Assembly: GCF_011682145.1 (NCBI RefSeq)
Contig: NZ_WHJH01000023.1
Span: 1 to 64,000 of the forward strand
DNA: 64,000 bases
Direction: 5' to 3'
DNA from: Massilia mucilaginosa
GTDB taxonomy: Bacteria; Pseudomonadota; Gammaproteobacteria; Burkholderiales; Burkholderiaceae_D
Shown: piece after piece, positions 36,113 through 55,881 of the stretch
How the letters are laid out: each line of letters begins with the position of its first letter
How positions within the stretch are numbered: position 1 is the stretch's first letter
Translations under genes and position numbers: made by a program
Notes under the pieces: model-generated
Database searches by the model: none
What the model saw: only the letters and a program-made list of their open reading frames with translations
What the model was told of the DNA's origin: nothing

Positions 36113-38146
36113 TTATGCGTGTTTCAAGTGCTGATGCCGGGCGCCGGCGAGACGGCGCGGCGCCGCCGCAACCCGCGCCTGCGCACCCGTCCGCTGTGCG
36201 GCCTTGGCCGCTTCATTTCCAAGCGTAAAAATACTCATCGCCTGCACCAGGGTGGCCGCCTGCTCCTGCAAACTGCTCGACGCGGCGGCGGTTTGCTCGA
36301 CCAGGGCGGCGTTTTGTTGTGTCATGTCATCCATCTGGGTGACCGCATGGTTGATCTGCTCGATCCCGGCCCCTTGCTCGGCCGAGGCGACGGCGATCTC
36401 CGCCATGATGCTGGTGATCCGCGTCACGCTGCTAAGGATCTCGCTCATGGCACTGCCGGCGTCGCTGGCGAGCTGGTTGCCCGCTTCCACCCGGTCCACG
36501 CTGTGGTTGATCAGCACCTTGATTTCCTTGGCGGCCGAGGCGGAGCGCTGCGCCAGGTTGCGTACTTCGCTGGCGACGACGGCGAATCCACGGCCCTGCT
36601 CGCCGGCGCGCGCCGCTTCCACGGCGGCATTGAGCGCCAGGATATTCGTCTGGAACGCGATGCCGTCGATCACGGAGATGATGTCGACAATCTTGCGCGA
36701 GCCCTCGTTGATGTCGCCCATCGTGCGCACCACTTGCGATACCACCGCCGCGCCCTTGGTCGCGGCCTGCGAGGCGCCCAGCACCAGCTCGTTGGCCTGA
36801 TGGGCATTGTCGGCGTTCTGCCGGACCGTGGAGGTGAGTTCTTCCATGGACGAGGCGGTCTCTTCCAGGTTCGAGGCCTGCGATTCGAGCCGCGACGACA
36901 CGTCATTGTTGCCCGACGCAATATCGCGGGTCGCCGCGCTGATGTTCTCGATGCTGACCCGCACATCGCCGACGATGCCGCGCAGGCTGTCGTTCATGTC
37001 CTTGAGGGCGCGCAGCATTTGTCCGACTTCATTGTCGGCGCCGACATCGAACTCGTTGACCAGATTGCCGCTGGCGACGCTTTGCGCCACCGCGACGGCG
37101 TTATTCAGCGGCCCCGTGACGGCGCGCGTGACGAGCACGGTGAACCAGCCGGCGCCGCCCAGCAACACCAGCATGACGCCGAGCATGGTCCAGCGTTCGG
37201 TATGGAAGTTGCCGATCTTGGCGACGAACATGGCGTCGAGATCGGCCTTGGCCGCGTTGTTGAGGGCGAACTGGGCATCGATCGCGCGCGTCGCGGCGGC
37301 CACGTACTCGCTGGGGCTGTAGGCGAGCGTCTCGGGCTTGAGAATCTGCTCGGTGGCCAGCCCGGTGACCGTGGACGACATGGCGACCGCGTCGTTCATC
37401 AGCGGCGCCAGGCTGGTGCCGATCGACGGGTTATAGGCGGCGGCCTTGCCGAAGGCATTCGTGGTTTGCAGCACGCGGTCATTGATCTTGCCGATCATCG
37501 ATGAAATGATCTGCCGTTCTTCCTGGCTGGCTTCTTTCTTTCCGAGCAGGCCGGCGCCCTTGGCGCGCAACTGGCCCAGTTCTTCCGTCAGGTAGGGCAA
37601 CTGATAATACATGGCCTGGATCAACTGATACGAATCCTTGTCCGGATCGAGGCTCAGGCCGTAGTAGTCGCCGATCAATTCGTTCACTTTCAGCGCCTTG
37701 GCCAGCAGGGCGGTGTGGGCGGCATAGCTTTGCGCCACCGTCATGGTCTTGCCGGCGACGCCCGCGCGCACGGCGTCCCATTCGCGCCGCGGCTCCGACC
37801 AGCGCATGCCGATGGCGGGGTCGCTGATGCGCGCGATCAGGCTGTCGACCACAGCAAAGGCGGCCTCGGCCTCGTGCTGCTTGGCCGCGCGCTTGTCTTC
37901 GGCCTCCTTGGTGCCGCCCAGTACCAGCGCCGACAGCCCGCGATGCTGCTGCGTCAGCTGGATCACGCGCAGCATGCTGGCCACGCCGGGCATGCCTGCC
38001 TGCTCGGACGAATAGGCCGTCAAGCCCTTGGCCGCTTCCTTGAAATATAAATAGGTCGGGATGCCGGCCACCATGATCCCGATGACGCTCAGGATCAGAT
38101 AGGTGTGCCACACCTTGAGTTTTCCGAGGAACGATTGCGCAGCCAT
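36113..38146 (-). CDS. Methyl-accepting chemotaxis protein with NIT-like sensor
   Basis: A 677-residue chemoreceptor. Transmembrane helix 1 (about 12-35) is followed by a large periplasmic all-helical sensor with [12 protein letters not shown] near its start, resembling NIT (nitrate/nitrite-sensing) domains. Transmembrane helix 2 lies at about 318-340, HAMP at about 340-392, and the cytoplasmic signalling hairpin carries the invariant tip [21 protein letters not shown] (about 512-532). It relays ligand occupancy to CheA/CheW and flagellar or pilus motors. The ATG at 38146 has AAGGAG upstream. It is monocistronic; no che genes are nearby. Confidence 0.9.
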
Positions 38147-38402
38147 GACAACTCCTTCATAAGGGCGGATCAAGACTGTGTCAAGCAATGTTGCTCTACG
38201 CAATCAATGAATTCATCATAGCTTGATCAATCTCAATATGCACTCAATGTAACTACCGGAACGATAAATACATTGGCACAAAAAAGACACCCGATGTTGA
38301 ATACTTAACAGACGGGGAGGGGACGCGCGGTTACAGTCAGGCACGCACACCGGCTTCCACGGGGAGCGGGGGTGCGTCTTTTCATCTTTATAGGAAACCA
38401 TC

Positions 38403-38694: not shown

Positions 38695-38862
38695 CTAGCA
38701 GCCTGTCGGACTTGGGGAGTCGAAGCGAGAAAATAGCTGGGCGAGGCCAGATTTTGACGATTTCGCAGTGCCAATAGCGAGCTATTGGCCGAGAAAGCGG
38801 CGAAATATGGACCGTCCCAGGTATTTTTGCAGCCGACGATCTCAAGTCCGACAGACTGCTAG
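38695..38862. repeat. 168-bp palindromic mobile repeat (MITE-like)
   Basis: Terminal inverted repeats CTAGCAGCCTGTCGGACTT (38695-38713) and its complement with one mismatch at 38844-38862 bound the element. Further inside, AAAATAGCTGGG pairs with CCCAGGTATTTT. The centre is a perfect hairpin, CCAATAGC and GCTATTGG around GA. Almost the whole element can fold as one long imperfect hairpin. It has no coding capacity. CTAG at both ends may be target duplication or part of the repeat. Its right end supplies the TAG stop codon of the next gene. Confidence 0.7.
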
Positions 38863-41642: not shown

Positions 41643-41708
41643 GGTTATTCCTTGTAGAATTCATCGGAAGCAGGAGCAGCGTCGAGACAACTGTTCTTGC
41701 AAATATCT

Positions 41709-42035
41709 CTATATTGCCACAATACTACCATCAGGGTCGCCATTTTTGGTGTGAGCATGCATTGCCTCGGCCAGGGCCTGCGCCTGCAGGACGCGGCGTG
41801 CGGTCGTCAGCCAGACGGCCAGGTCCAGCAGGGCGCTGGCGCGCTCGCTCATCGGCGCGGCTTCCCGCGCCACGGTCTGGAACAGGCGGCCGGTCTGTTG
41901 CCAGCCGAGCAGCTCGCCCTGTTGCTGCCAGGCGCGTCCGCGGTCGAGCAGCTCGCGCCCGCTCATGCTCAAGCCGATTTTCTGCACTTGCGCCAGCCAG
42001 GCGCAGCCTTCGTCGAGCCAGTCCGGCAATGTCAT
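41709..42035 (-). CDS. Small helical protein at the end of the yeh-like operon
   Basis: A 108-residue, predominantly helical protein rich in Leu, Ala and Trp (PDWLDEGCAWLAQVQKIGLSM, REAAPMSERASALLDLAVWLT). No family recognised and no membrane segment. Its ATG overlaps the stop of the SWIM gene (ATGA, 42032-42035), so translation is coupled and it belongs to the same complex or pathway. It is the last gene of the eight-gene operon. The composition resembles the helical repeats of the DUF4132 partners, suggesting an adaptor role; this is inference. Confidence 0.7.
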   Translation of the reverse strand: MTLPDWLDEGCAWLAQVQKIGLSMSGRELLDRGRAWQQQGELLGWQQTGRLFQTVAREAAPMSERASALLDLAVWLTTARRVLQAQALAEAMHAHTKNGDPDGSIVAI

Positions 42036-43651
42036 CGCGGTTTCTCCTTGTCGGCGCGCAGCCATGGCACGCTCAGGTCGCGCCATTGCGCATCGTCGTT
42101 CCAGCGGACGCTGATTGGACGCATCAACAGCTCGCCGCCTTCGATCCACAGATAGCCGAACAGCGCGGCCATCCGCCATCCGGCGCGCCGCGCCTTGTTC
42201 AGTTCCTGGTAGACCGTGCCGCCGAAGCTGCCCTGCAAGCGCAGACGGTTGCCGGCCGCGTCGCCCACCTGCATCGACCAGGCGCCGCTGTTGCGATCGC
42301 CGTGCAGCGGCGCCTGCTCCGCAATGGCGATGCAGCAGGCGGCCGGTGCGGCAATGCGCCACGGATCGTCGTGCAGGTCGGCCGCCATGCGCGCGATCAT
42401 GGGCGTCAGGTCGTCGAGAATGGGCAGGCGCAATGCGCCGGCCAGCGCGTGCATGCGCGTGCCATCCCGGCCCGACAACCTGCCATTGCCGCTGACCCAG
42501 CCCGACGCCAGCATGCAGGGCGAGCCGAGCATGGATTTGACTGCCAGGCCGCCCAGGTCCGCCTGCGCCAGCGCCTGGTCCGGGTCCCATTCGGGCGCGA
42601 GCGCCTGCTGGCGCACTTCCGACCAGACCAGATAGCCCTGGCGCGCCGGTGCCCAGAAGTGCAGCGAAAAACCGTGATGGCCGCCCGCCGTATCCCAGCG
42701 TTCGACGCCGGCGCAATGCAGTTCGAGTTCGCCCACCGCGCCATAGCCGCGCCGGTGCACGCCGGTCAGCTCGCGCAACGGGCGCGGCGGCGGCGACGCC
42801 TGCAAACCGCGCAGCAGCATCCACAGGGCGGCCAGCGCATCCTGCGCGCCGCCGCTGTCTGCCCGCAGCAAGGCCACCAGCTGCTGCAGGGCGGTGCACA
42901 CGCGCGGCATCTGCGCCTGTTTCAGCTCCACCGCCAGCGCCTCGCCCTGGTCGAGGAAGGCCTGGCCGCTGCCCGACCATCCCTGCACCACCAGCGATTC
43001 CATCCAGCCGCGCAAATGCGCCAGCTTGTCGGCGGCATCAAGGTCGAGCGCCACCGGCGGCAGCGGCGGAATCGGCTGGCCGGCCGCGCGCCTGGCTTGC
43101 AGCACCACCAGCGCGCGGTGCACGCAAGCCGGCTTGCGGCAGCTGCACAGGGCGGCCGCCAGTCCGCCCACCGCCGGCAGGCGCACCACGACGGCCTCGG
43201 CCAGCTCCAGCGTGCCGCTGATCGACCCGGCCTCGTTTTGCAGGTCGGCTTCGATGTCGTTGGCCAGCCACTGCAAGGCCTTGCGCAGCGCCGCCACACC
43301 GAGCAGCGAGGCCAGTTTGCCGCTCCCGGCCAGCAGCCAGTCGGCCTGCGCGGGCGTGGGCTGCGCCGCGCCATCGGGCAGGTGCCGGCCCAGGCCGAGC
43401 AAAAACGCGCACAGATGGTGGCAGGTCACCTGCGCCGGGCAGTCGCAGCGCGCATGCTCGAATCCCACCCGGCCGATATGCTGGGTAAAGCCTTCGATGC
43501 GCGCCGTGGCCTCGCCCGCGCCGGTGCGCCACTGCGCGTCGGCGCCGTCGGCCAGCACTTTCAGGCCGCGCCGCACCAGGCCCTTGTTGGCCCAGGCGGC
43601 CACGCTGTCTTCGTCGAGACTGCGGATCCAGTCGAACAAGGCGGTCGTCAA
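42032..43651 (-). CDS. SWIM zinc-finger protein (YehQ-like)
   Basis: A 539-residue protein with two SWIM-type zinc motifs: Cys69, Cys71, Cys77, His79 (CDCPAQVTCHH) and Cys169, Cys171, Cys176, His178 (CSCRKPACVH). SWIM fingers bind DNA or proteins. The remainder is helical and then beta-rich, without enzyme motifs. The start is a TTG whose next base completes a TTGA overlap with the VWA stop; GAGGAT lies 7 nt upstream, which supports it. The position directly after a VWA gene matches E. coli yehP-yehQ. It overlaps the downstream small gene by 4 bp. Confidence 0.85.
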   Translation of the reverse strand: MTTALFDWIRSLDEDSVAAWANKGLVRRGLKVLADGADAQWRTGAGEATARIEGFTQHIGRVGFEHARCDCPAQVTCHHLCAFLLGLGRHLPDGAAQPTPAQADWLLAGSGKLASLLGVAALRKALQWLANDIEADLQNEAGSISGTLELAEAVVVRLPAVGGLAAALCSCRKPACVHRALVVLQARRAAGQPIPPLPPVALDLDAADKLAHLRGWMESLVVQGWSGSGQAFLDQGEALAVELKQAQMPRVCTALQQLVALLRADSGGAQDALAALWMLLRGLQASPPPRPLRELTGVHRRGYGAVGELELHCAGVERWDTAGGHHGFSLHFWAPARQGYLVWSEVRQQALAPEWDPDQALAQADLGGLAVKSMLGSPCMLASGWVSGNGRLSGRDGTRMHALAGALRLPILDDLTPMIARMAADLHDDPWRIAAPAACCIAIAEQAPLHGDRNSGAWSMQVGDAAGNRLRLQGSFGGTVYQELNKARRAGWRMAALFGYLWIEGGELLMRPISVRWNDDAQWRDLSVPWLRADKEKPR

Positions 43652-44778
43652 GATTGCATCCTCGTGGCCAGCCAGTCGATCAGCGCGTCCGGCGTCATGG
43701 CCGCCGCCTCGGCGCCGCAGGCAACCATCTGGCGCGCCGTTTCGCGGTCGTAGTCGGGTTCCGCCTGGCGGTCGAGCGCCGCCAGCACCAGCACGGTCAC
43801 GCCGCTGCGGGTGAGCGCCGCCGTTTCGCGCAGCAGGGGCGCGCGCGTGCCGCCTTCATACAGGTCGCTGATCAGCACCACCACGCTGCGCCGGGGCGTG
43901 TCGATCTGCCCGCGCGCGCACGCCAGGGCAGCGCCGATGTTGGTGCCGCCGCCGATCTGCACCGACATCAGCAGTTTTTCGGGCGCGTGCAACTGGCTGC
44001 TGGCATCGGTGACATCGTCGGCGAACAGCAGCATGCGCGTGCGCACCGCCCGCAACCGCGCGAAAATGCTGGCCATGACGGCGCTATGGATCACCGATTC
44101 CGACATTGATCCGCTCTGGTCGACCACGACCCACAAATGCCACGGCAGGCGCTGTTCGTGGCGGCGCTTGAAAAACAGGCGTTCCAGGATCAGCTCACCG
44201 GTGTCGCTCTGGTAGTGGCGCAGGTTGTGGCGCATGGTGTGCGGCCAGTCGAGGTCCGACAGGCGCGCTCTTCCTCCACGCGCATGGCGCTGGCGGCGCG
44301 GCGCAAAGGCGCTCAGCGCGCGCGGCGCCAGCCGCGCTTCCAGTTCGGCCACCACTTTGGCGACAATCTCCTGCGCCTTGGCCAGCACCGGCGGCGGCAG
44401 CATGTGGCGCAGGCCGAGCAGGATGCGCACCAGGTCCATGCTGGGCGCCACCGTGTCGAGCACGGCGGGGTCGGTCAACAGGCCGTGCAGCTGGTAGCGT
44501 TCGAGCGCGTCGCGTTGCAGCACCTCGGCCGCCGTTTGCGGGAACAGCGTGCGCACCTTGCCCAGCCAGCGCACCGCCGCCGGATCGGCGCGGCCGCTGC
44601 CGCCGCTGCGCTCGCGTGGATGCCCGTCCTGTTCGCGGTCGTACAGGAAGCCGAGCGCCTGGTCGCGCTGGTCGTCGGTGGCGCCCAGCGCCTGGCCGCG
44701 CAGGCCGTCTTCGGCCGCCGCGCCCAGCACCAGGCGCCAGCGGCGCAAGGTGTCCGCATCGAGTGCGCGTTCGCTCAT
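43648..44778 (-). CDS. VWA domain protein (YehP-like)
   Basis: A 376-residue protein with a C-terminal von Willebrand factor A domain (about 210-376). The MIDAS metal site is intact: DQSGS at 220-224, a Thr in IGGGTNIGAAL, and Asp in VVVLISDLYEGG. The N-terminal 200 residues are helical with a basic RRQRHARGGR patch. VWA proteins paired with MoxR ATPases act as metal-dependent adaptors or chaperone-like remodelling partners. The length is close to that of E. coli YehP. It overlaps the DUF5682 gene upstream (ATGA) and the SWIM gene downstream (TTGA), so expression is tightly coupled. Confidence 0.9.
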   Translation of the reverse strand: MSERALDADTLRRWRLVLGAAAEDGLRGQALGATDDQRDQALGFLYDREQDGHPRERSGGSGRADPAAVRWLGKVRTLFPQTAAEVLQRDALERYQLHGLLTDPAVLDTVAPSMDLVRILLGLRHMLPPPVLAKAQEIVAKVVAELEARLAPRALSAFAPRRQRHARGGRARLSDLDWPHTMRHNLRHYQSDTGELILERLFFKRRHEQRLPWHLWVVVDQSGSMSESVIHSAVMASIFARLRAVRTRMLLFADDVTDASSQLHAPEKLLMSVQIGGGTNIGAALACARGQIDTPRRSVVVLISDLYEGGTRAPLLRETAALTRSGVTVLVLAALDRQAEPDYDRETARQMVACGAEAAAMTPDALIDWLATRMQS

Positions 44779-47078
44779 GGTCCGACTCCCCAGCGTTGCA
44801 TGATGCCGGCCACCTGTTCCAGGCACAGGCGGCTGTGGTGCAGCGTGTCCATGTCGGGCACGCGCCGGCCGCCCAGGTCCAATGCCTGCGACGGGCCGGC
44901 CAGCACGCGCGCCAGTTCGTCGGTCTCGCGCCGCGACAGCTGCGAAAACGCCAGCCGCATCGACGGCAGCGCACTCAAAAAATCGTCTTCGCTCCAGGCC
45001 GCGAGCACGGCGCTCAACTGGTCCAGGTGCTGCGGGCTGGCCAGCATCCAGCTGCGCGCGATGCGCAGGAAACCCTGCATGTAGTCGGAAATCGCTTGCG
45101 GCGCCAGGTGCGCCAGTGCGAAGGTGGCGGCCAGCGCCGCGCTGGTCCGGCCCGGCGTCCAGCTGCCCGACACGGTCAGGATGGCGGCCGCGCCGCCGCG
45201 CACCTGGGGCGCCACGTCGCCGTCGTGCAGGCTGGCGCAGGCGTCGTAGAACAGGGCCGGATCGGCCCATTGCGCCTGGCGCCGGATCATGCCGTGCAGA
45301 TCGTCGAGCGCGGCCAGCATGGCTTGGGAGCGCGCCGCATCAGTCATGCCCAGCCACGGCAGGCGGATGCAGGTCTGGCTGAAGCCGCGTTCGAGCAGCG
45401 GCAGCAGGCGCGCCATGCCGACCCCGCCGAGCGCCAGGCGCGCCTCGAAGGCCAGCGCCAGTTTGGCCGTGCCCTGGGCCAGTGCCAGCGGGTCGTAACT
45501 GTCGCCCAGCCAGCGTTCGACCCCGTCGAGGACCTTGTCGGCCACTTTGTCGAGCCCCATCGCCAGCACTTGCAGCACCAGGTCGGCCGGCGAGCCGGCA
45601 GGCTGCGCCAGTTGTTCGAGCAGCTTGTTGACGGCGGCGTCGGCCAGGCTGGCGCCATAGCGGCTGTTTTCGGTCAGGCTGGTGGCCGTTTCGGTGATCC
45701 AGCGCAGGGACCAGATTTCTCGCACCCGCCCAAGATCGGTGGCGTTCACAAAATCGGGGCCGGCCACGCGTTCGCCGTACGGCACGCCCAGAAAGCGCAG
45801 CTGGTGCAGCACTTGCGATGCCGCCCGGTGCCTTTCGTTGCGGTAGATGTCCAGGTCCTTCTTCTTGCTCTCGCCGAAGCGGCTGGGCATGCGGTGGCGC
45901 AGGCAGGCGGCGATGGCGTCGGCCAGCAGCGGCGCGAGCGGCATGTCCGGCGGCAGCGCCCCGTCCGGGCCGCGCGCCAGCAGGCTGGCCAGGGTGGCGG
46001 CGAAGCCGGCCTCGTCGCTGTCATCCTTGAGCATGGTGCTGCGCAGCGATTCGCGCAGTTCGGCCAGGCCGGCATGGCAGCCGCGCAGCGCCGCCAGCCG
46101 GTGCGCCATGGCGACGGTTTCGATCGCGTCCGGCAGGGTGACCGGGATGCCGCTCTCGCGCAGATTCGCGGCCAGTTCGAGCGCCAGCGCCGCGAACGGC
46201 TGCCGGTACGGCGCCAGGTCGCCCGCTTGCCAGGCTTGCCACACGCGCTGGTAGTAACCCGGCGCGGGCATGCCGGCGCTGTAGCGCTGCGAGCGTTCGA
46301 AGCGCTCCAGCGGATACGCGATCAGATGGACGCCGACTTCCTGCGCCGCCGGGACGACGCCTTGCGCCGGGGCGTCGAGCATGGCGCTGATGCCGGCCAC
46401 GTGGTAGGCACCGCAGACGACCAGGCAGCGCTCGCCGAGCGCCAGCGCTTCACTGATCCTGGCGGCCATGTGGGCCTCGCGCGCTGCGTTGTCCGGGTCC
46501 ATGCCGCTGCCGGCGCGCAGCAACTCGCCGAAAACCAGCAGCGACGCAAAGTAGGCGTGCGCACTTGGTGCGTCCAGGCCCGACTCGAAATGGCGCTCCC
46601 ACCAGGCGTCGAAATCCTGGCAGCCGCTCGGCGCGACCAGGGCCGCGATCAGGTCGGGGCGCGGCTCGTCGGCCAGGGTCGGCTCGGGTGCGCGCGCAAA
46701 ATAGGCGCTGTTGCCGGTGTCAGTTACGCGGGTGGCGAATGGCAGGTCGATGAAGCTGGCGGCAATGTGCAGGCGGGCCGCTTCGCGCAGGGCCACCCAT
46801 TCGGGCGAAAATGCCGTCAGCGGCACGTAGGCGCGGCAGCGCAGCGCCTCCTCGCCGGCCACCGCGTGCAGATACGCCGCCACCGGTGCGCGGGTTTGCT
46901 TGTGCTGCAGCAGCGGCATGAGGGCGTTCAGTTCGTCCGGCCCTTCGATCAGGATGCGCTGCGGCGCAAAGCCGGCCACCAGCTCGCGCAGGTGATGGGC
47001 GCAGCGCGGGCTGTGATGGCGCACCGGGGCGAACATCAGCCCGGCTCGTGGCGACAGGCGCTGCGCATCACTGTTCAC
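44775..47078 (-). CDS. DUF5682 family protein (YehM-like)
   Basis: A 767-residue protein of the DUF5682/YehM group. The N-terminus has FAPVRHHSPRCAHHLRELV and RILIEGPDELNALMPLL, the family signature with a His-rich segment, and further on AYFASLLVFGELLRAG and CLVVCGAYHVAGI. The rest is a long helical-repeat-like region. No known catalytic role; it occurs with MoxR and VWA genes. The start is GTG at 47078, overlapping the end of the AAA gene by 11 bp. The length is close to that of E. coli YehM. Confidence 0.85.
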   Translation of the reverse strand: MNSDAQRLSPRAGLMFAPVRHHSPRCAHHLRELVAGFAPQRILIEGPDELNALMPLLQHKQTRAPVAAYLHAVAGEEALRCRAYVPLTAFSPEWVALREAARLHIAASFIDLPFATRVTDTGNSAYFARAPEPTLADEPRPDLIAALVAPSGCQDFDAWWERHFESGLDAPSAHAYFASLLVFGELLRAGSGMDPDNAAREAHMAARISEALALGERCLVVCGAYHVAGISAMLDAPAQGVVPAAQEVGVHLIAYPLERFERSQRYSAGMPAPGYYQRVWQAWQAGDLAPYRQPFAALALELAANLRESGIPVTLPDAIETVAMAHRLAALRGCHAGLAELRESLRSTMLKDDSDEAGFAATLASLLARGPDGALPPDMPLAPLLADAIAACLRHRMPSRFGESKKKDLDIYRNERHRAASQVLHQLRFLGVPYGERVAGPDFVNATDLGRVREIWSLRWITETATSLTENSRYGASLADAAVNKLLEQLAQPAGSPADLVLQVLAMGLDKVADKVLDGVERWLGDSYDPLALAQGTAKLALAFEARLALGGVGMARLLPLLERGFSQTCIRLPWLGMTDAARSQAMLAALDDLHGMIRRQAQWADPALFYDACASLHDGDVAPQVRGGAAAILTVSGSWTPGRTSAALAATFALAHLAPQAISDYMQGFLRIARSWMLASPQHLDQLSAVLAAWSEDDFLSALPSMRLAFSQLSRRETDELARVLAGPSQALDLGGRRVPDMDTLHHSRLCLEQVAGIMQRWGVGP

Positions 47079-48168
47079 GCGCGCCCGCCACGAAGTCCAT
47101 CCAGTCGGCCCGCAGGCTGCGTTTTTTGGCGACGATGCGCAGGTATTCGCTGAAACGGCGCCGGTCTTCCTGGTCGTCCTGGATCACGGTGCCGAGCAGG
47201 TAGCGCGCCACATGCGCCGGGCGCAGGGTGGTTTCGCCAAAATACCAGCACTGCGAGGCGGCGTCGCACACCACGCTGATCGCCTGCGCGGTCGAGAGCA
47301 CCGTGCCCGGGCGTTCGATGGCGATGCCGTCGACCGCCCCGGCGCGCAGTTCGTGGAAGGCGGTCGCCAGCAGCGTCAATACGTCGGGCGGCACCGCCAC
47401 GCCGATGTTCGCCGCCAGCAGTTCGCGCCGCACTTCGTCGCCGATCAGCGTCACCTGGGTGGCGATGCTGTCGAGCGGCTGCATGGTCTCGAAGTTGAAG
47501 CGGCGCTTGAGCGCGGCCGACATCTCGTTCACGCCACGGTCGCGCAGGTTGGCCGTGGCGATCACATTGAAACCCGGCTGCGCCAGCAGGTAGGGCTGTT
47601 GTTCTTTCAGTTCCGGGATGTGCAGCAGCCGTTCGGACAGCACCGGCACCAGGCAATCCTGCACTTCGGTGGCGCAGCGGGTGATTTCTTCGAAACGCAG
47701 CAGTTGGCCGAGCGCCATCGCACGGTGCAGCGGCCCGGGCACCAGCGAGGCCTTGCCGGGGCCGTCGCGCAGCAGCAGCGCGTAGTTCCAGCCGTAGCGG
47801 ATCTGTTCTTCGACCACGCCCGCGCCGCCCTGCACCGAGATGGTGGTGTCGCCCGAAATGGCGGCGGCCAGCAGTTCCGACAGCAGCGACTTGGCGGTGC
47901 CGGGTTCGCCGGCCAGCATCAGCCCGCGCTGGCCGGCCAGGGTGACGATGGCGCGTTCGACCAGCGCATCGTTGCCGTGAATTTTGCGGGCGATGCTCAC
48001 GCCGCCGGCTTGCGCCGTAGCGCTGCCGAGGATGAAGGTGCGCGCCGCGCGCGGCGACAGGCGCCAGCCGGCCGGACGCGGACCGCTGTCGGCCTGCGCC
48101 AGCGCGTCCAGTTCGGCGGCAAAGCGCATTTCGGCCGGCAGGCGCTGGGCGGCGGTGGTGTTGTTCAT
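47068..48168 (-). CDS. MoxR-like AAA ATPase (YehL-like)
   Basis: A 366-residue AAA+ ATPase of the MoxR/YehL type. Walker A GEPGTAKS is at 87-94 and Walker B LLRFEE at 156-161. Sensor 1 Asn207 lies in NVIATANLRD, and candidate arginine finger residues 222-223 in ALKRRF. MoxR ATPases assemble as hexamers and, with VWA partners, remodel or activate client proteins. This is the only clear energy-consuming motor in the operon. It has a Shine-Dalgarno (GGAAG) and is separated by 42 bp from the upstream DUF4132 gene, the largest gap inside the operon. Confidence 0.9.
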   Translation of the reverse strand: MNNTTAAQRLPAEMRFAAELDALAQADSGPRPAGWRLSPRAARTFILGSATAQAGGVSIARKIHGNDALVERAIVTLAGQRGLMLAGEPGTAKSLLSELLAAAISGDTTISVQGGAGVVEEQIRYGWNYALLLRDGPGKASLVPGPLHRAMALGQLLRFEEITRCATEVQDCLVPVLSERLLHIPELKEQQPYLLAQPGFNVIATANLRDRGVNEMSAALKRRFNFETMQPLDSIATQVTLIGDEVRRELLAANIGVAVPPDVLTLLATAFHELRAGAVDGIAIERPGTVLSTAQAISVVCDAASQCWYFGETTLRPAHVARYLLGTVIQDDQEDRRRFSEYLRIVAKKRSLRADWMDFVAGAREQ

Positions 48169-48210
48169 GCGTGCGCTTCCTGGTTGGGTTCTGAAAAAGG
48201 TAACAGCGTA

Positions 48211-50118
48211 TCAGGCCGGACGCTTTGCATCCAGCAACAAAAGATGCGACCAGACCGTGGCCAGCAGCGACTTGGGCCAATGCGCGCTCGGCACCAGGGC
48301 GTAGCCGTCGGCGGCGTCGCGCAGCTCGGCCGCCGCGATTCCGACCGGCATGCCGAAGTGAGGGGACGCCGGACCTGCACTATGTAGTATGCGCACTTCC
48401 AAGCGGGCGGTCGGCAGGGGCCATGCGTGCCAGTCGATCCATGCGGCGTGCGTCCCGGAACGTTGTCCCTCGCTGTAGCCGGCCTTGCCCAGGATCGCGG
48501 CCAGATCGGGTTGCGTCATGCTCAGGCCCGGGGGCGCCAGCAGGCAGTCGCCAGTCAGCTGCGCCGCCGGGGGCAGGGCGGCCGGGGCGCCGGTCTGGTC
48601 GATCAGGGGCGTGAGCAGGTAGTCGGCCAGATGGGAGCGCCATGCTTCGGCCTCGCCAGCCGCTGCGCCCGCCGGATGCCAGAGGGCGATCCGGGCCTCC
48701 GGCGCCAGGGGGAACGGCTTGTCATCGGCATCGATCAGTGAAAAATCCTCGGCGAGGCCGAAATCCGGCGTCAGGTCGTCGATCAGCTCGCCCATGGCGC
48801 AGTTGCGCCGCTGCGCCGCCGCATCCAGCGCCTTGACGGCCGCGTGGATCACCGGGCCTTTGAGCTTGATCGATTCGGCCGCTTCCATCACGCGCAACAG
48901 GGCGTACGGCGTATCGAGCGCGCTCAGCTGCGCGAGGGCGACCACCGCGCGCGGATATTTGCTCTTTTTGCCCCAGGCAAACACGGCCGCACCAAGCGGC
49001 TCGGCAATCCGCTCGTCGGCGCCATTCGCCAGCAGCCGCAGCATCGAGCGCAGTTTGGGTTCGCCCTCGCCGGCGATCCAGGTCTGCACCGCGTGCAGGG
49101 CCAGGCGAGCGCGCCGGTCGGCCGAAAGCTGGGCCAGCAGGGCCGCGGCGAGCGGCGGCAGCGCTTCGTCGCCGGTGGCCGCCAAGTGCAGCGCGGCGCG
49201 CGCCGCGTGCCCGGACAAAGGCTGGAACAGCGCCAGTACCTCCGCATGGTCGAGCGGCTTGATGGCGGCCGACCAGCGTGTGATGCCGGCCGCCTGCGCT
49301 TCCAGCTGCGCCAGCGACGGCGCGGCGCCAGCGTCAATCGGAGCCAGTACGGCTGCCAGCGCACTGGCGGAGGCCGGATCGAGCTCGCCCGCAGCCAGCA
49401 TGCCGGCCAGCAGCGGCGCGGCGGCCGCCTGGTTCGGGTGGGCCAGCAACAGGTCGCGGCACGCCAGGCGCAGGTTCTTGTTGCGCACCGTGAACCAGCC
49501 CGCCGCGCACATCTCGTCAAGGTCGAGGTGGGCGGACGCGGCGACCACTGCGTCACGCACCGCTTTCGAGCTGGTTTTGGCGATCATGGCTCCCAGTTCC
49601 GGCAAGATCGCACGCAGCAGGTCCGTTGGCAACAGCGGAATCAGCAGGTCCAGCTTGCCTGGCTCGGCTGTGAGCAGGAGCGTCGGCTGGCGCGACAGGA
49701 TCGCGTGCAAGATGCCTTCATAGGCACTGATCGCGCGGCGGCTCTGCGTCATCAAGGGAAACAACAGGGGGAGCAAGGCTGGGTATTGCTTTTCCCATAT
49801 CAGGCTGGCAAGGGACGGGCCGAACAGCGCGCCTTGTTCGCGCAGCAGCGTGGCGAACAGGGCTGGGTCGGACGTGATCAGCTGGTCCGCAGCCATAAGG
49901 AAATCGTCGCACGCTGCCGCGTCGATCGCGTCCAGCACGGTAGCGCCCAGGGCCTTGCGCAACGCGATATCGCAGTGGGCCATGTAATCCATGACCTCGT
50001 GCCCGCGCCCCGCGCGCAGGCGGGCGGCAATCTCGCGCTCGATCACCCAGACGCCGTCCAGCGTCAGGTCGACATCCATCTCCGCCAGCGGAACGAGGAA
50101 GCGATGAGTGTCTTCCAT
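48211..50118 (-). CDS. DUF4132-like protein, shortest paralogue with internal deletions (YehI-like)
   Basis: A 635-residue paralogue of the two genes upstream. It keeps most of the helical-repeat middle (AGWFTVRNKNLRLACRDLLLAHPNQA, ALFQPLSGHAARAALHLAATGDEALPPLA) and the C-terminal segment ending SLLATVWSHLLLLDAKR. Relative to its paralogues it lacks about 120 residues containing the LQGDLxLRLVDAKGK and KIMGRSLIW core: LTPDFGL is joined directly to AEDFSL. About 190 residues near the N-terminus are also missing. The frame is open, so the changes are in-frame and the gene may be functional in a reduced role. It starts 3 bp after the previous gene. Confidence 0.8.
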   Translation of the reverse strand: MEDTHRFLVPLAEMDVDLTLDGVWVIEREIAARLRAGRGHEVMDYMAHCDIALRKALGATVLDAIDAAACDDFLMAADQLITSDPALFATLLREQGALFGPSLASLIWEKQYPALLPLLFPLMTQSRRAISAYEGILHAILSRQPTLLLTAEPGKLDLLIPLLPTDLLRAILPELGAMIAKTSSKAVRDAVVAASAHLDLDEMCAAGWFTVRNKNLRLACRDLLLAHPNQAAAAPLLAGMLAAGELDPASASALAAVLAPIDAGAAPSLAQLEAQAAGITRWSAAIKPLDHAEVLALFQPLSGHAARAALHLAATGDEALPPLAAALLAQLSADRRARLALHAVQTWIAGEGEPKLRSMLRLLANGADERIAEPLGAAVFAWGKKSKYPRAVVALAQLSALDTPYALLRVMEAAESIKLKGPVIHAAVKALDAAAQRRNCAMGELIDDLTPDFGLAEDFSLIDADDKPFPLAPEARIALWHPAGAAAGEAEAWRSHLADYLLTPLIDQTGAPAALPPAAQLTGDCLLAPPGLSMTQPDLAAILGKAGYSEGQRSGTHAAWIDWHAWPLPTARLEVRILHSAGPASPHFGMPVGIAAAELRDAADGYALVPSAHWPKSLLATVWSHLLLLDAKRPA

Positions 50119-50121
50119 CGG

Positions 50122-53007
50122 TCAGGCGACCCGTTTCGCCTCAAGCAGTTGCAGGTGCGACCACAAGGTGGCCAGCAGCGCCTTCGGCAGGCTGGCGGGT
50201 GCGACCAGCTTGTAGCCGCCGCCGAGGGCGCGCACCGCGATGCCATGCACCTCGATCGGGGTGCCGAGATCCATGAACGGCGAACAGAAACCGTTTTCGA
50301 GCCGCACTTCCAGCTGGGCCGCAGGCAGCGGCCATTCATGCCAGTCGATGGACGGCCCATCGCCCACCGGCCCCTGGCGGTAGCCGCACTTGCTGGCAAT
50401 CGCAGCGTAATGTTCCTGGAACACCTTCAGGGCGGCGGGCGCCAGCAGGCGTTCGGCCGTCATCGACGCGGCGGGAGGCAGTTCGGCCGGCGCGCCGGTC
50501 TGGTCGATCAGGGGCGTGAGTTCGTAATCGGCAAAGTTGCTGCGCCATGCCGCGATTTCTCCCGCGCGCGCGGTGGCGGGATGCCACAGGGTGACGTGCG
50601 CATCGGGCGGCAAGGTGACTACCTCGTCGTTCGCTTGCAGCAAGGAAAAGTCTTCGGCGATACGGAAACTGACGCCGGAAGCCCCGTCGGTTTGCCAGAT
50701 CAGGCTGCGGCCCATGATTTTGAGCAACGGATGATCGAGAAACAGCTGGGTCCAGCGCGACGCAGTCCAACTCCTGGCGGTCACGAACGCGGCCAGCATG
50801 CGCGGCGCCTGGAGCTTGGCGACCGCTTTCAGGCTGGCGGACAGGATCTTGAACTGGCTGGCCGCCGCTTCCCATGCCTCTTTCAGGCTGTCTTCCTTGT
50901 TCGCAGGCAGCGATTTCGAGGCCTTGCCTTTGGCGTCGACCAGGCGCAGGCTCAGGTCGCCCTGCAACACCACCTGGTAGCTTTGCGCACCGACCGTCAA
51001 GGTGATGCCCTGGCCGAGCCCGAAATCCGGGGTCAGCTCGTCGAGCAGGTCGCCCAGGCTCAGCTTGCGCCGCGCGGCGGCCGCGCGCAAGGCATAGGCG
51101 GCGGCGTCGACCACCATGCCCTTCACTTTGCGCGATTCGGAAATCTCCAGCACGCGGGCCAGCGCGTAGGGTGAATCGATCAGCTCAAGTTGCTCCACTG
51201 CCACCACCGCGCGCTGTTTCCTGGTTTTGCCCCAGGCGAATACCGTCGCGCTGAGCAGGTCGACGATGCGGTCGTCCGCGCCGCTTGCCGCCAGGCGCAG
51301 CATCCAGCGCATTTTCGGCTCGCCATCGTTGCCGATCCAGGTTTCGGCCAGGCGCTGGGACAGGCGCGCCCGGTTCTCGGGCGACAGTTGCGCCAGCAAG
51401 TCCGTGGCCAGCGGCGGCAGGGCGTCGCTACTGGTCGCGGCCAGGTGCAGGGCGGTGCGTGCCGCGTGGTTGGACAGCGGCTGGAACAGGGCCAGGGTCT
51501 CGGGATTGTCGACCTGGGCGATGGCGACCGACAGGCGCTTGATGACGGACGCCTCGAATTCGATCCGCTCCAGTTCGCTCGTAAACGGGCCGGCTGGCGC
51601 TGGCGCCCGCGCGGCAACGACCGCCGCCGCGCCGGCCTCGGCCGCCTCCAGGCTGGCCAGCAGCGGTGCGGCGCCGGCCTTGTCGGGGTGCGCTTGCAGG
51701 ATGTCCTTGCACACTTTGCGCAGGTTCTTGTTGCGGACCGCCAGCCAGCCGGACCCGGCAATATCATCGATGGCGAGCTTTTTCGCTGCCTTGACCATGG
51801 CCGCGCCGAGCGCTTTCGAGGTGCTCTTGGCGATGACCGTGCCCAGCACCGGCAGCAGGGTGCGCACGATGTCCGTGGTCAGCAGCGGGATGATTTTTTC
51901 CATGCTGGCGCCCGGGATGGTCAGCGCCAGCTCCGGCTGGCCTGACAGCATCGGACGCAGGGTGTCGCGATAGCCGTCCAGCGAGTGGTAACTTTCCAAT
52001 ATCGTCGGCAGCAGCGCCGGCAGCAAGCCCGGATGTTGTTTTTGCCAGATCAGGGTGGCGATCTTGCCCGAAAACAGATAGCTTCTCTCGACCATCAAGG
52101 TGGCAAACAGCGCTTGGTTGTCAGCCATGAGCTGATCGATCGCCTTGAGGAAAACCGCCTGATCGCCTTTGTCGCTGCGGTACAACGTACCCAGTAGTGT
52201 TTCCGCCATCGCCCGCCGGAGTTCCGGCGTGGCCTGCGGCCAGCGCCACACGATCAGCGCGGGATCGCCGATGTCTTGCTGGTGCTTGTCGAAACGCTCC
52301 GGGTGTAGATGAAAGAAATCGTGCCAGGCGAGCCAGCGTTCGCGTCGTGGCAGGGCGTCGCTGCGATGCCTGTGCAGCACGATCGCGTCATCGAAGTAGC
52401 GCTCGTGCTGGGATGCGTAGGCGAGCAGGTCCGCAGGATCGCTCAGGCATCGCATCAGGCGGGTCCGATTGCGGTCGAAGTCCTCCTGCGCTGTGCCGTT
52501 CAGCGCGCGCAGTTCCTGGTTCCATGCGAGCAGGCTGAGCGCTTCATCGCGCGGCATGCCGTCGTACGGCAGCAGTTCGATGATGTTATCGAGCACGAAT
52601 GTTGCGGCTTCTTCGAGGCTGCCGGCCCCGCTACCTGCCGCGGCGGCGGCGATCAGCGTGGTGCAAATCGCGCGCAATTCATGCGAGAACGCGGCGTCGC
52701 GCTGCCGCGCATCCGGGTACGGTTCGGGAAACTGGATATGGCGCGGCGCGGTCAGGCGGAAAAACCGCAGCCACAACTGGCTGCTACGGCGCCAGACGGC
52801 GTGTTCCCGCTCGACGTGTACCAGCTGTTTCAGGACGTAGCGGTCGCATTGCTGGATGAAGGCGATCACTTCCTGCTCGCGGCCGTTCTCGAAGCGCTCG
52901 CCGAGCTCCCTGGCCAGCGCATCTTCGCCGTGGGCTTTGATGCCAATCTCGTTCAATGGTTTTGTGGAAAGGAGGGTATCGTTCACGGTCTGTTCTTGTT
53001 CGTTCAT
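50122..53007 (-). CDS. DUF4132 domain protein, second paralogue (YehI-like)
   Basis: A 961-residue protein. Most of its length is helical HEAT/ARM-like repeat (for example PETLALFQPLSNHAARTALHLA, then SPENRARLSQRLAETWIG). Toward the C-terminus comes the DUF4132 core with LLDELTPDFGLGQGITL, LQGDLSLRLVDAKGKASKSLP, RMLAAFVTARSWTASRWTQLF and LLKIMGRSLIW, then IAEDFSLLQANDEVVTLP. No enzymatic motif is known. It is strongly similar to the gene on either side, evidence of tandem duplication. Shine-Dalgarno AGGA present. In E. coli the homologue YehI lies beside yehL-yehM-yehP-yehQ. Confidence 0.85.
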   Translation of the reverse strand: MNEQEQTVNDTLLSTKPLNEIGIKAHGEDALARELGERFENGREQEVIAFIQQCDRYVLKQLVHVEREHAVWRRSSQLWLRFFRLTAPRHIQFPEPYPDARQRDAAFSHELRAICTTLIAAAAAGSGAGSLEEAATFVLDNIIELLPYDGMPRDEALSLLAWNQELRALNGTAQEDFDRNRTRLMRCLSDPADLLAYASQHERYFDDAIVLHRHRSDALPRRERWLAWHDFFHLHPERFDKHQQDIGDPALIVWRWPQATPELRRAMAETLLGTLYRSDKGDQAVFLKAIDQLMADNQALFATLMVERSYLFSGKIATLIWQKQHPGLLPALLPTILESYHSLDGYRDTLRPMLSGQPELALTIPGASMEKIIPLLTTDIVRTLLPVLGTVIAKSTSKALGAAMVKAAKKLAIDDIAGSGWLAVRNKNLRKVCKDILQAHPDKAGAAPLLASLEAAEAGAAAVVAARAPAPAGPFTSELERIEFEASVIKRLSVAIAQVDNPETLALFQPLSNHAARTALHLAATSSDALPPLATDLLAQLSPENRARLSQRLAETWIGNDGEPKMRWMLRLAASGADDRIVDLLSATVFAWGKTRKQRAVVAVEQLELIDSPYALARVLEISESRKVKGMVVDAAAYALRAAAARRKLSLGDLLDELTPDFGLGQGITLTVGAQSYQVVLQGDLSLRLVDAKGKASKSLPANKEDSLKEAWEAAASQFKILSASLKAVAKLQAPRMLAAFVTARSWTASRWTQLFLDHPLLKIMGRSLIWQTDGASGVSFRIAEDFSLLQANDEVVTLPPDAHVTLWHPATARAGEIAAWRSNFADYELTPLIDQTGAPAELPPAASMTAERLLAPAALKVFQEHYAAIASKCGYRQGPVGDGPSIDWHEWPLPAAQLEVRLENGFCSPFMDLGTPIEVHGIAVRALGGGYKLVAPASLPKALLATLWSHLQLLEAKRVA

Positions 53008-53016
53008 GATCCTGGT

Positions 53017-55881
53017 CTATTGGTTGCGCTTGGCGTCAAGTAATTGTAAATGCGACCACAAGGTGGCCAGCAGGGGCGCGGGCAGGCTGGCCGGCGGCAC
53101 GGCCGCGCCGGTGCCGGTGTTCCATATCCGGATCCCGCGGACCTCGATCGGCTTGCCGAGTTCCATCATCGGCGAGCAGTAACCGTTTTCCAGATGCACC
53201 GCCAGCTGCGCCGCCGGCAGATGCCATTCGTGCCAGTCGATCGACGGCCCGTCGTTCACCGGCCCCTTGCGGTAGCCGCAGCGGGTCAGGGTCGCCGCCA
53301 GCTGTTCCTGCACCACGCTCAGGCCGGCCGGCGCCAGCACGTGCTCGGCGCTCATCGATGCCTCGGGCGGCAGGGCAGCCGGCGCGCCGATCTGGTCGAT
53401 CAGGGCCACGATCTCGTAGTCGGCAAAATTGCTGCGCCAGGCCTCCGCTTCACCAGCGCGCGCGCTGGCCGGATGCCACAGGCTGAGCTGTGCATCGGGC
53501 GGCAAGGCGAGCACCTCGTCGTTGGCTTGCAGCAGCGAAAAGTCCTCGGCGATGCGAAAACTGCGCGCATGCTCGCCCTGGATTTGCCAGATCAGGCTGC
53601 GGCCCATGATCTTGAGCACCGCGTGATCGAGAAACAGCTGGGTCCAACGCGCCGCGCTCCAGGTCTTGGCGGTGACCAGGGCGGCCAGCATGCGCGGCGC
53701 TTGCAGTTTAGCCACCGCTTTCAGGCTGGCGCTGATCGTCTTGAACTGGCTGCTCGCCATGTCCCAGGCCTCGCGCGTGGCGTCATCCTTGTTCGCTGGC
53801 AGGGTTTTCGACACCTTGCCCTTGGCGTCGACCAGGCGCAGGCACAGGTCGCCCTGGAGGACGATGCGGTAACTGGCGTCGCCGACCGTGAGCGAGATGC
53901 CCTGGCCGAGGCCGAAGTCCGGGGTCAGCTCGTCGAGCAGTTCGGCCAGGGCCAGCTTGCGCCGCGCGGCTGCCGCTTTGAGCGCATCGAGCGCCGCCTC
54001 GGGGATCATGCCCCTGACCTTTTTCGACTCCGAAATTTCCAGCACCCGCGCCAGCGCATACAGCGAATCGATGCCCGCCAGTTGCTCCACGGCGATCACG
54101 GCGCGCTGCTTGCGCGTCTTGGCCCAGCTGAACACCGTCTCGCTGAGCAGGTCGACGATGCGGTCGTCCGCGCCTTCGACGGCCAGTTGCAGTACAAAGC
54201 GCAGCTTGGGATTGCCCTCGCTGCCAATCCACACTTGCACCAGATGCAGCGCCAGGCGCGCGCGCGCTTCGGCCGGCAGTTGCGCCAGCAGGGCCCCGGC
54301 CAGCGGCGGCAAGCCGTCGTCGCCGGTCGCGGCCAGGTGCAGCGCGGCGCGCGCCGCGTGTTCGGACAGCGGCTGGAACATCGCCAGCAGTTCCGGATTG
54401 TCGAGCGGCTTGATGGCGGCCGACCAGCGCTTGATGCCGGTCGCCTGCGTTTCCAGGCGCGCCAGTGCGGCCTCGCCCGTCTGGGGCTCGGCGGACGGCG
54501 TGCCCCGGGCCAGGTGCGCCTCCACCGAACTTGCCGTTGCCGCGTCGAGCTGGCCGGCGGCGAGCATGGCCGCCAGCAGGGGGCTGGCGCTGGCCTGGTC
54601 CGGATGGGCAATGAGCAGGTCCTTGCAGGCCAGGCGCAGGTTTTTGTTGCGTACGTTCAGCCAGCCGGCTTGGACGATATCGGCGATGGCCAGCGTTTTG
54701 GCCGCCTCGGCGATGGCTTCGCGCAGCGATTTCGAGGTACTTTTGCCGATCAGGGTGCCCACGTCCGGCAGCACAGTGCGCAGCAGCTCCGCGCCCAGCA
54801 GCGGGATCAGCTGGTCCAGGTTGGCCGCTACCGCGCTTTGCATCAGATCGGGCCTGCTGGAGAGCATCTCCAGCACCAGCTCGCGGTATTGCCCCACCGA
54901 ATCGCGGGACCCCGTCATCAATGGCATGAGAATAGCCACCAGGCCGGGGTATTGGCGTTGCCAGATCAGGGTGGCGGTGGCCAGGTTGAAGTTGTAGGGC
55001 CGCTCGCGCAGCGCGATGCCGATGAAGGCTTCATCGGTGCGCACCAGTTGATCGATGGTCTCGGCGACACACGCCTGGTCGGCGCCGTCATACCAGCGCA
55101 TCATCTGCAGCAGGCTGGCGAGCATGTCTTCGCGCAGTGTGGGCGGGGCGGCGTCCCAGCGCCGCAGGATCAGCGCCGGATCGCCGAGTGCGCTGTGATG
55201 GCGGTCGATGTACTCCGGGTATTGCTGGAAGAAATCGTGCCACGGCAACCAGCGCGTGCGCAGGTCGCCCGCTGGCGCGCGGTCCTTGAAGACCTGCAGC
55301 GCCGTCTCGAAGTAGCGCTCAGCCGTGGCGGACAGGGCGATCAGGTCCGCCGTGTCGTCCAGGGTCCGGACCAGGTGGTGGACGCTGTTGTAGCCCTGGC
55401 CATCGGTCCAGCCCGCGGCACGGCTCAGGGCCAGGTTCCATTCCAGCAGATTGAACACGCGCTTGCGCGGGATGCCGGGATACGCCAGGCGGTCGATAAT
55501 ATTGCGCATGACGAAAATGAGGGCATCCTTGCGGGCGCCGGTGCCGGCCAGGTACTGCTCGGCCAGCTCGCACAATTCGCGCGAAAAGGCTTCGTTGCGC
55601 TGCCTGCCAGCCTCCCATGCTTCGCGCAGCAGAACGCCGCGCGGCACGGTCACCCGCGCCAGCGCCAGCCAAATCGCCGCATCGGTTTCCCACGCAAGAT
55701 CGCCGCTTGCATACCCCAGCTGATTCAAGACCGATTCGTCGCATTCCCTCAAGAAATCGACGACTTCCTGTTCGCGCCCATTCTTCAGGCGCAGGCTGAT
55801 TTCGCCGGCCAGGACGTCGCGGTTGGCATAGCTGCCGTCGATCTCGGCGAGCGGGGTTGCGGAGAGTGGCGTATCGGTCAT
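53017..55881 (-). CDS. DUF4132 domain protein, first paralogue (YehI-like)
   Basis: A 954-residue protein with the same architecture as its downstream neighbour: a long helical-repeat body, then the DUF4132 core (LTPDFGLGQGISL at about 655, IMGRSLIW at about 762, IAEDFSLLQAND at about 778) and a C-terminal domain ending LLATLWSHLQLLDAKRN. It is the first gene of the eight-gene operon. The ATG at 55881 (MTDTPLSATPLAEI) was chosen because it aligns with the second paralogue's N-terminus; a longer frame to 55968 adds an unrelated Cys-containing leader. The roughly 150 bp upstream should contain the operon promoter, though no strong consensus was seen. Confidence 0.85.
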   Translation of the reverse strand: MTDTPLSATPLAEIDGSYANRDVLAGEISLRLKNGREQEVVDFLRECDESVLNQLGYASGDLAWETDAAIWLALARVTVPRGVLLREAWEAGRQRNEAFSRELCELAEQYLAGTGARKDALIFVMRNIIDRLAYPGIPRKRVFNLLEWNLALSRAAGWTDGQGYNSVHHLVRTLDDTADLIALSATAERYFETALQVFKDRAPAGDLRTRWLPWHDFFQQYPEYIDRHHSALGDPALILRRWDAAPPTLREDMLASLLQMMRWYDGADQACVAETIDQLVRTDEAFIGIALRERPYNFNLATATLIWQRQYPGLVAILMPLMTGSRDSVGQYRELVLEMLSSRPDLMQSAVAANLDQLIPLLGAELLRTVLPDVGTLIGKSTSKSLREAIAEAAKTLAIADIVQAGWLNVRNKNLRLACKDLLIAHPDQASASPLLAAMLAAGQLDAATASSVEAHLARGTPSAEPQTGEAALARLETQATGIKRWSAAIKPLDNPELLAMFQPLSEHAARAALHLAATGDDGLPPLAGALLAQLPAEARARLALHLVQVWIGSEGNPKLRFVLQLAVEGADDRIVDLLSETVFSWAKTRKQRAVIAVEQLAGIDSLYALARVLEISESKKVRGMIPEAALDALKAAAARRKLALAELLDELTPDFGLGQGISLTVGDASYRIVLQGDLCLRLVDAKGKVSKTLPANKDDATREAWDMASSQFKTISASLKAVAKLQAPRMLAALVTAKTWSAARWTQLFLDHAVLKIMGRSLIWQIQGEHARSFRIAEDFSLLQANDEVLALPPDAQLSLWHPASARAGEAEAWRSNFADYEIVALIDQIGAPAALPPEASMSAEHVLAPAGLSVVQEQLAATLTRCGYRKGPVNDGPSIDWHEWHLPAAQLAVHLENGYCSPMMELGKPIEVRGIRIWNTGTGAAVPPASLPAPLLATLWSHLQLLDAKRNQ

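Follow-up and report, generated by a model that had tools for sequence, protein, structure and literature searches.

An eight-gene relative of the Escherichia coli yeh locus in Massilia mucilaginosa encodes a DUF5682 protein resembling TIKI/TraB/ChaN hydrolases

We analyzed a 64,000-nucleotide stretch of Massilia mucilaginosa DNA (the window, contig C155 of a 7.70-Mb genome) and found that eight minus-strand genes at positions 41709 to 55881 form a genuine example, eight genes long, of a bacterial protein machine that is widespread and is familiar from the yeh genes of Escherichia coli. The gene set, its conserved order, the conservation of its motifs and a profile-level match of the DUF5682 protein to the TIKI/TraB/ChaN hydrolase superfamily were all observed directly. 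The new point is that the N-terminal domain of DUF5682 looks, from its sequence profile, like an enzyme of that superfamily, which makes a MoxR-VWA engine coupled to a predicted hydrolase the probable design of the system. The genes are listed below in the order in which their strand is read, with Pfam matches taken at an expectation value (E) of 0.01 or lower; G138, G553 and G111 are three other genomes of the genus.

53017..55881, minus strand: D1, DUF4132 protein, 954 amino acids (aa); Pfam PF13569 at 5.3e-30 over the full model; orthologues in G138, G553 and G111
50122..53007, minus strand: D2, DUF4132 protein, 961 aa; Pfam match at 5.7e-30 over the full model; AlphaFold2 model, with Foldseek matches to HEAT scaffolds
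48211..50118, minus strand: D3, DUF4132 paralogue, 635 aa; Pfam match at 1.6e-9, covering only model positions 61-159 of 179
47068..48168, minus strand: MoxR-type AAA+ ATPase (YehL type), 366 aa; AAA_5 at 4.8e-32
44775..47078, minus strand: DUF5682 protein (YehM type), 767 aa; PF18934 at 1.9e-102
43648..44778, minus strand: VWA_CoxE protein (YehP type), 376 aa; PF05762 at 4.9e-47; intact metal ion-dependent adhesion site (MIDAS)
42032..43651, minus strand: SWIM-type protein (YehQ type), 539 aa, TTG start; two CxC...CxH motifs; YehQ profile match at 4.6e-76
41709..42035, minus strand: small conserved protein, 108 aa; 46.8% identity over 77 aa to its counterpart in G339, with a substitution-rate ratio and an alignment

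The genes are separated by gaps of 9, 3 and 42 base pairs (bp) and then overlap by 11, 4, 4 and 4 bp, exactly the one-strand arrangement given in the original prediction, which had been made by reading the letters of the DNA. The MoxR, DUF5682 and VWA genes adjoin on one strand, which is the arrangement by which we recognize a YehILMPQ-type system, and the ratios of nonsynonymous to synonymous substitution rates (dN/dS) of 0.13 to 0.47 across all eight genes indicate purifying selection. D1 starts with the ATG at 55881, with a further ATG in the same frame at 55968. Neither the SWIM-type nor the small protein had a Pfam match at the threshold used.

The assignment of these genes to the families of yehI, yehL, yehM, yehP and yehQ held up well, as profiles built here matched the corresponding K-12 proteins at 2.8e-149 for DUF4132, 1.7e-148 for MoxR, 1.5e-165 for DUF5682, 2.1e-147 for VWA and 4.6e-76 for SWIM. 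Directly compared, the MoxR protein is 46.9% identical to YehL over 354 columns and the VWA protein is 43.1% identical to YehP. An E. coli locus carries a WGR-DUF4132 gene and a second DUF4132 gene (yehI) upstream of yehL-M-P-Q, and the WGR-DUF4132 gene, which in K-12 is in pieces (yehF and the pseudogene yehH), is presumably the molR of the literature, although the record gives it no name. The yeh locus (WGR-DUF4132, yehI, yehK, yehL, yehM, yehP and yehQ) thus has the same five families in the same order, with two DUF4132 proteins of 1210 and 1262 aa; the window differs in having a third DUF4132 gene, one with deletions, in the shorter length of its DUF4132 proteins (about 955 aa) and in having no WGR domain matched in its proteins. 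Of 5426 E. coli genomes, 5284 had a match to yehM, and in 5166 the match spanned at least 80% of the gene.

A scan with a DUF5682 alignment yielded at least 587 relatives from many phyla, and the 80 most similar to the DUF5682 protein of the window were examined, a choice that leans toward its own relatives. On the same strand as DUF5682, MoxR was found at 76 of these 80 loci, VWA at 76, SWIM at 64 and DUF4132 at 50; the SWIM figure is an undercount that misses diverged SWIM proteins, since six further loci share an open reading frame (ORF) cluster whose example has a SWIM-like CxC. Independent occurrence of the families with no conserved neighborhood, which the original prediction had named as grounds for giving up the system, was therefore not what we found for the core, although DUF4132 genes also occur elsewhere. 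The orders MoxR-DUF5682-VWA-SWIM-DUF4132 (14 loci) and DUF4132-MoxR-DUF5682-VWA-SWIM (11 loci) were common. Counting either strand, 52 loci had DUF4132, 13 had DUF5691, none had both and 15 had neither, several of the last being on short contigs. Among 954 ORFs lying within 4 kilobases (kb) of these loci, grouped into crude clusters, the largest non-core clusters reached 9 of 80 loci; one of these was a membrane-protein-like family and the others were shadows of SWIM or DUF5691 genes. Among sampled genomes of the family, 13 of 145 had DUF5682 and 49 of 392 had DUF4132; of 398 sampled from the phylum, 11 had DUF4132, with the window's own genome included.

The DUF5682 protein was modeled with high confidence (predicted local distance difference test [pLDDT] of 90.3, predicted template modeling score [pTM] of 0.87) as a TIKI/TraB-type N-terminal domain at about residues 8-262 followed by a long helical C-terminal part. 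In an hhalign comparison, the N-terminal domain matched TraB (51 sequences) with a probability of 93.5 and ChaN (27 sequences) with a probability of 73.9; control comparisons with the MoxR, VWA and SWIM profiles gave 0.30, 0.08 and 0.20, and the known pairs TraB-ChaN and ChaN-EreA gave 93.2 and 93.3. With full-length profiles the values were 74.4 for DUF5682-TraB and 41.2 for DUF5682-ChaN, compared to 92.2 for TraB-ChaN and 0.09 for a negative control. Requiring a frame with a GxxH-type motif kept 51 of 59 TraB loci and 27 of 30 ChaN loci, and the motif alignments kept 33 of 39 TraB and 27 of 30 ChaN; for EreA, 12 of 17 were kept. H21, E45, R200, G223 and H226 of DUF5682 are invariant in 75/75 rows, as is R200-x-x-x-M204. 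The TraB alignment has an invariant G-x-x-H, E and R and a nearly invariant second G-x-x-H, the ChaN alignment carries GExH, E and GxxH, and the distance from the R to the GxxH is 23 in the reference rows of both DUF5682 and TraB. A Foldseek search of a viral structure library returned a TraB protein as the top match of DUF5682, with a probability of 1.00 but an E value of 0.029; among solved structures searched by sequence, the best E value was 0.13. What DUF5682 shares with the TIKI/TraB/ChaN/EreA superfamily is the profile match and the H / E / R / GxxH pattern; it differs in its long helical C-terminal part, in a first motif that reads RHHSP instead of GxxH and in being encoded within an AAA+ locus. 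Our literature search found no mention of DUF5682 by name.

The motif columns of the other core proteins were counted over rows that include the window's own and that come only from plus-strand profile matches (E < 1e-10) in loci L048 to L127. The original prediction had described a complete Walker A/B ATPase, which is right for Walker A (GEPGTAKS); the Walker B, LLRFEEI, has E-E replacing D-E and is of a family-specific R-x-E-E form, with R158, E160 and E161 present in 77/77 rows, so it is a family trait and not a defect. The predicted intact MIDAS was confirmed by D220, S222, S224, T279 and D305 of the VWA protein in 77/77 rows, and the two predicted SWIM zinc motifs are indeed there, at residues 69 and 169 of the SWIM-type protein, motif 1 recurring in 56/60 rows and motif 2 in 29-31/60 rows. 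Pfam SWIM was matched above its cut-off in a paralogue (L028, of the C361 system described below), though not in the window protein. MoxR-VWA pairs have been described as chaperone-like remodeling systems (PMC7159879, PMC3893208), and MoxR relatives as maturation chaperones (PMC3893208), CoxD-CoxE among them (PMC7159879). The window system resembles RavA-ViaA and CoxD-CoxE in its engine pair, its VWA domain being of the CoxE type, and adds hydrolase-like, HEAT and SWIM components, with no linked substrate enzyme seen.

The DUF4132 proteins are the variable part of the system. D2 was modeled by AlphaFold2 (pLDDT 87, pTM 0.53) as a long helical solenoid with HEAT-like helices at about residues 26-657, followed by an alpha/beta C-terminal part at about 660-961. 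The best Foldseek matches of this model in PDB were karyopherins, CAND1 and PP2A-A scaffolds at E values of 1e-4 to 1e-3, with low TM-scores of 0.1 to 0.2; the DUF4132 profile matched artificial alpha-repeat proteins (a synthetic fusion at 2e-22 and alphaRep at 5e-16) and one natural HEAT protein at 1.6e-7. The N-terminal part of DUF4132 thus appears similar to HEAT proteins by sequence or by fold. Three DUF4132 genes are present as predicted, but their description as a triplication needs qualifying, as there are two full-length copies and one with deletions: in an alignment with its orthologues, D3 is short of about 200 residues in the helical arm and of about 120 more, among them the beginning of the DUF4132 domain, and the DNA junction of the second deletion shows that 360 bp were lost in frame, with CCGA on either side. 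In G138, the D3 orthologue is instead frameshifted near its C terminus. The E. coli locus already has two copies, and the DUF4132 genes of these bacteria are repeatedly duplicated and lost, the orthologous locus having 3 in the window, 3 in G138, 2 in G553 and 4 in G111. D1 and D2 are kept in 4/4 genomes with dN/dS of 0.20 to 0.47. In a DUF4132 tree made by a quick method, in which G339 (a genome from another family of the order) has long branches, the 12 window-type copies from the genus group in a single clade (100 in the Shimodaira-Hasegawa-like approximate likelihood ratio test) that excludes the three copies of G339, so the DUF4132 expansion arose separately in the two. A triplication giving D1 to D3 in common with G339 was ruled out by the same clade.

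The genome containing the window (G000) has three such systems, on C155, C361 and C383, and 16 DUF4132 matches in all. The two others are as follows.

G000 C361:181789-219585 (L028-L030), one direction: 11 DUF4132 genes in tandem, two of them short, then MoxR-DUF5682-VWA-SWIM
G000 C383:84561-92063 (L031): SWIM-DUF5691-MoxR-DUF5682-VWA system

G138, G553 and G575 have arrays of the C361 type with 8-11 DUF4132 reading frames, fragments among them, and G111 has one with two. In the tree, 9/11 of the C361 array genes group with a copy from another species, implying that the majority of the copies are old and have been kept apart. Nine full-length paralogues of the array are 34 to 45% identical in alignment columns 201-700, and 58 to 73% identical in columns 701-1200; at the ends of the alignment the figures are 59% over the first 100 columns and 42% over the last. 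Broadly, the array would be a variable arm on a constant end, although relaxed selection on the arm would give the same picture. The C383 layout, which is also found on a Deinococcus taeanensis plasmid, has the same core and a SWIM-type protein; it differs in having DUF5691 in the place of DUF4132 and SWIM first instead of last. A comparison of DUF5691 and DUF4132 profiles gave 22.7 over 93 columns of the helical part, which is suggestive only.

The small gene, which the original prediction took for a new addition, is instead a conserved part of a subtype. It adjoins the SWIM 3' end with a 4-bp overlap, has dN/dS of 0.29 to 0.45, and encodes a protein 78 to 84% identical in G138, G553 and G111; G339 has an approximately 47%-identical protein at the same place in a locus ordered DUF4132 x3 - MoxR - DUF5682 - VWA - SWIM - small. 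Among the best 80 loci it was seen only in M. rubra, which is G138 again, so the gene, kept in four genomes of the genus and in G339, marks a subtype; its profile has no match in the E. coli yeh locus. That the ORF arose by chance was ruled out by the conserved counterpart, the dN/dS and the alignment. A match in G564 (E 0.0055, 38%, containing a stop) was not counted, and neither was a 108-aa ORF at the small-gene place of a Pseudoalteromonas locus (L049 15115-15441, E 0.48), perhaps a distant relative.

Some DUF5682 match is present in 10/17 genomes of the genus, and 4/17 have this locus, with DUF5682 84 to 100% identical. In three further species the flanks are conserved but the system is absent: between the flanks lie about 0.2 kb in G586, a 1.3-kb piece in G542 that matches the N-terminal half of DUF4132, and 0.5 kb of that half in G575. 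The pattern is more suggestive of loss from a fixed site than of recent mobility. The G542 piece (L292 11061-12377) is an open frame without the DUF4132 domain, either a remnant or a solo helical protein. Downstream of the locus, window positions 38859-41642 hold a gene for a DUF4214 protein that is fast evolving (68 to 76% identity in three related genomes) and is kept also where the system is absent, and that is probably unrelated to it. Window positions 36113-38203 hold a large gene with many paralogues per genome of the genus and 37 matches in its own genome; it resembles what we take to be a chemoreceptor family. The guanine-plus-cytosine content is 69 to 72% over positions 42001-50000 and 54 to 67% in the remaining window. 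In positions 41000-48500 there are no sigma-70-type promoters and 4 terminator-like sites, compared to 4.0 expected, one being on the operon strand within the D3 3' end; upstream of D1 lies one promoter-like site, compared to 0.3 expected.

Of the roles that had been suggested for the system, stress response has support from regulation in other lineages only, where DNA damage is the best-documented trigger among the relatives. The molR gene is listed among LexA-regulated genes (PMC11039860, PMC4576408), and in the E. coli yeh locus (L136) positions 2370-2385 read CTGGATAAAATTACAG, one mismatch from the LexA core and ending 10 bases before the WGR-DUF4132 gene, in a stretch with 13 such sites compared to 7.2 expected. 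A five-gene MoxR/VWA operon of D. deserti carries a radiation-response motif (PMC2669436) and may have the SWIM-DUF5691-MoxR-DUF5682-VWA layout, and DRA0166 of D. radiodurans, a DUF4132 protein, rises after mitomycin C (PMC8533742). The best site for the radiation-response motif at the D. taeanensis locus is weak, with 12/17 positions of the consensus, compared to 11 elsewhere in the stretch. The region upstream of D1 contains no LexA-like box; sites with up to one mismatch number 13 across the whole window, compared to 14.2 expected, and one of these, between D3 and MoxR at 48191-48206, is not conserved in G138, G553 or G111. For the suggested defense role no positive evidence was found. PADLOC matched 0/10 proteins (the eight and two neighbors) at E<=0.01, and a scan of viral contigs for DUF5682 gave 23 pattern matches, none of which was confirmed. 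An unverified 14.2-kb fecal record labeled 'Bacteriophage sp.' (L134, MT835988.1) has MoxR-DUF5682-VWA and may be mislabeled bacterial DNA.

We consider the chances to be even that the locus encodes an AAA+-driven, MIDAS-controlled processing machine of the YehILMPQ kind, with a TIKI-type predicted hydrolase and HEAT adaptors; the multi-subunit MoxR-VWA machine of the original prediction is retained here as the best reading. The remodeling engine would consist of the MoxR ATPase together with the VWA protein and its MIDAS, as is thought for RavA-ViaA and CoxD-CoxE, and DUF5682 would be its enzymatic output, a hydrolase gated by the engine and most likely a peptidase or esterase. The DUF4132 proteins may be scaffolds of the HEAT type, with the variable arm binding clients and the conserved C-terminal part docking to the core, in which case several copies would be alternative adaptors, with DUF5691 taking the same slot in the sister subtype. 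The SWIM protein could bind nucleic acid or protein via zinc, the small protein would be a subtype-specific accessory, and the machine as a whole probably acts under stress to mature or remove particular client proteins. A further step, that one MoxR-VWA-DUF5682(TIKI)-SWIM core serves an expandable set of DUF4132 HEAT adaptors, each for another client, in a modular AAA+-gated hydrolase, is proposed only tentatively, as less likely than not.

Several results weigh against a processing machine of this kind. A Foldseek search of PDB with DUF5682 gave no match at E<=0.001, and no TIKI protein was among the 50 of 621 matches listed. A first, narrow TraB profile of 19 sequences scored only 18.4 against DUF5682, and EreA was not matched directly by DUF5682 (0.05 and 5.1), though the accepted pair TraB-EreA was also missed by the same method (0.16 and 1.7). 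Four of 200 column-shuffled decoys scored about 132, as artifacts of 4-23 columns at the profile end; the remaining 196 scored 20.6 or lower, compared to 58.3 over 201 columns for the true match. The TraB rows were picked by the first GxxH motif, which partly forces the invariance of that motif. Active TIKI enzymes are described with 2His/2Glu (PMC6254334), and only three of these published positions are in register in DUF5682 (H21, E45 and H226); the invariant E165 and E201 are candidates for the fourth residue, and the TraB alignment likewise lacks such an invariant Glu. DUF4132 genes also lie away from such loci, on C33 and C111 of the window's genome, and the C361 paralogues are 59% identical in their first 100 columns, at odds with a wholly variable arm. 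A LexA-type box was found upstream of 0 of 54 relatives' operons, a test without power, as only 0.3 were expected in sum. Finally, the literature found reports no interaction, activity or substrate.

It is rather unlikely, in our view, that the system is a chaperone only, with MoxR-VWA and HEAT scaffolds maturing one complex or cofactor enzyme and the TIKI-like domain binding without catalysis. The published view of MoxR relatives (PMC3893208) and of CoxD-CoxE (PMC7159879), the VWA_CoxE domain of the window protein and the existence of a superfamily member that lacks the 2His/2Glu motif (PMC6254334) would all fit such a role, whereas the conservation of H21, E45 and H226 in 75/75 rows is not predicted by binding alone, and with no non-core cluster, crudely defined, in more than 9/80 loci within 4 kb, no standing client gene is seen. 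Tandem DUF4132 copies could also be by-products of duplication with one functional copy, and the D3 deletions in the window, the C-terminal D3 frameshift in G138, the two copies of G553 and the short or split genes of some arrays are what neutral amplification would leave; we hold this to be unlikely given that D1 and D2 are kept under constraint in all four genomes, that 9/11 array genes group with another species' copy and that copies have multiplied again both in G339 and in a second system. Those same tandem paralogues, together with the presence or absence of the system at a fixed locus, might instead point to conflict with phages, in which DUF4132 proteins would sense the invader, MoxR-VWA would be the switch and DUF5682 would act as effector. 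MoxR-vWA ternary conflict systems with MoxR-vWA-sensor-peptidase designs have been proposed (PMC7159879, PMC12839542), and the window shares with them a general resemblance, namely MoxR, VWA and a further component; it differs in that its bpMoxR match, at 19.5 bits, is under the cut-off of 27 and no other MoxR-vWA conflict component is among its Pfam matches. With the PADLOC and viral-contig results, the near-universal yehM of E. coli, paralogues that are kept between species and not hypervariable, and dN/dS of 0.13 to 0.47 across the eight genes, we regard an antiphage role as improbable.

The yeh locus is near-universal in E. coli, as judged by yehM, and has relatives across phyla, and no established function for it was found in the literature search. 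With a catalytic domain predicted and its residues named, the function can be tested by point mutation, and the DUF4132 arrays offer a natural test of the adaptor idea. If the modular reading is true, adaptor sets would number 2 to 4 at the window locus and 11 in the sister array, and the substrate range of the machine would evolve by tandem duplication, by divergence of the HEAT arms and by loss.

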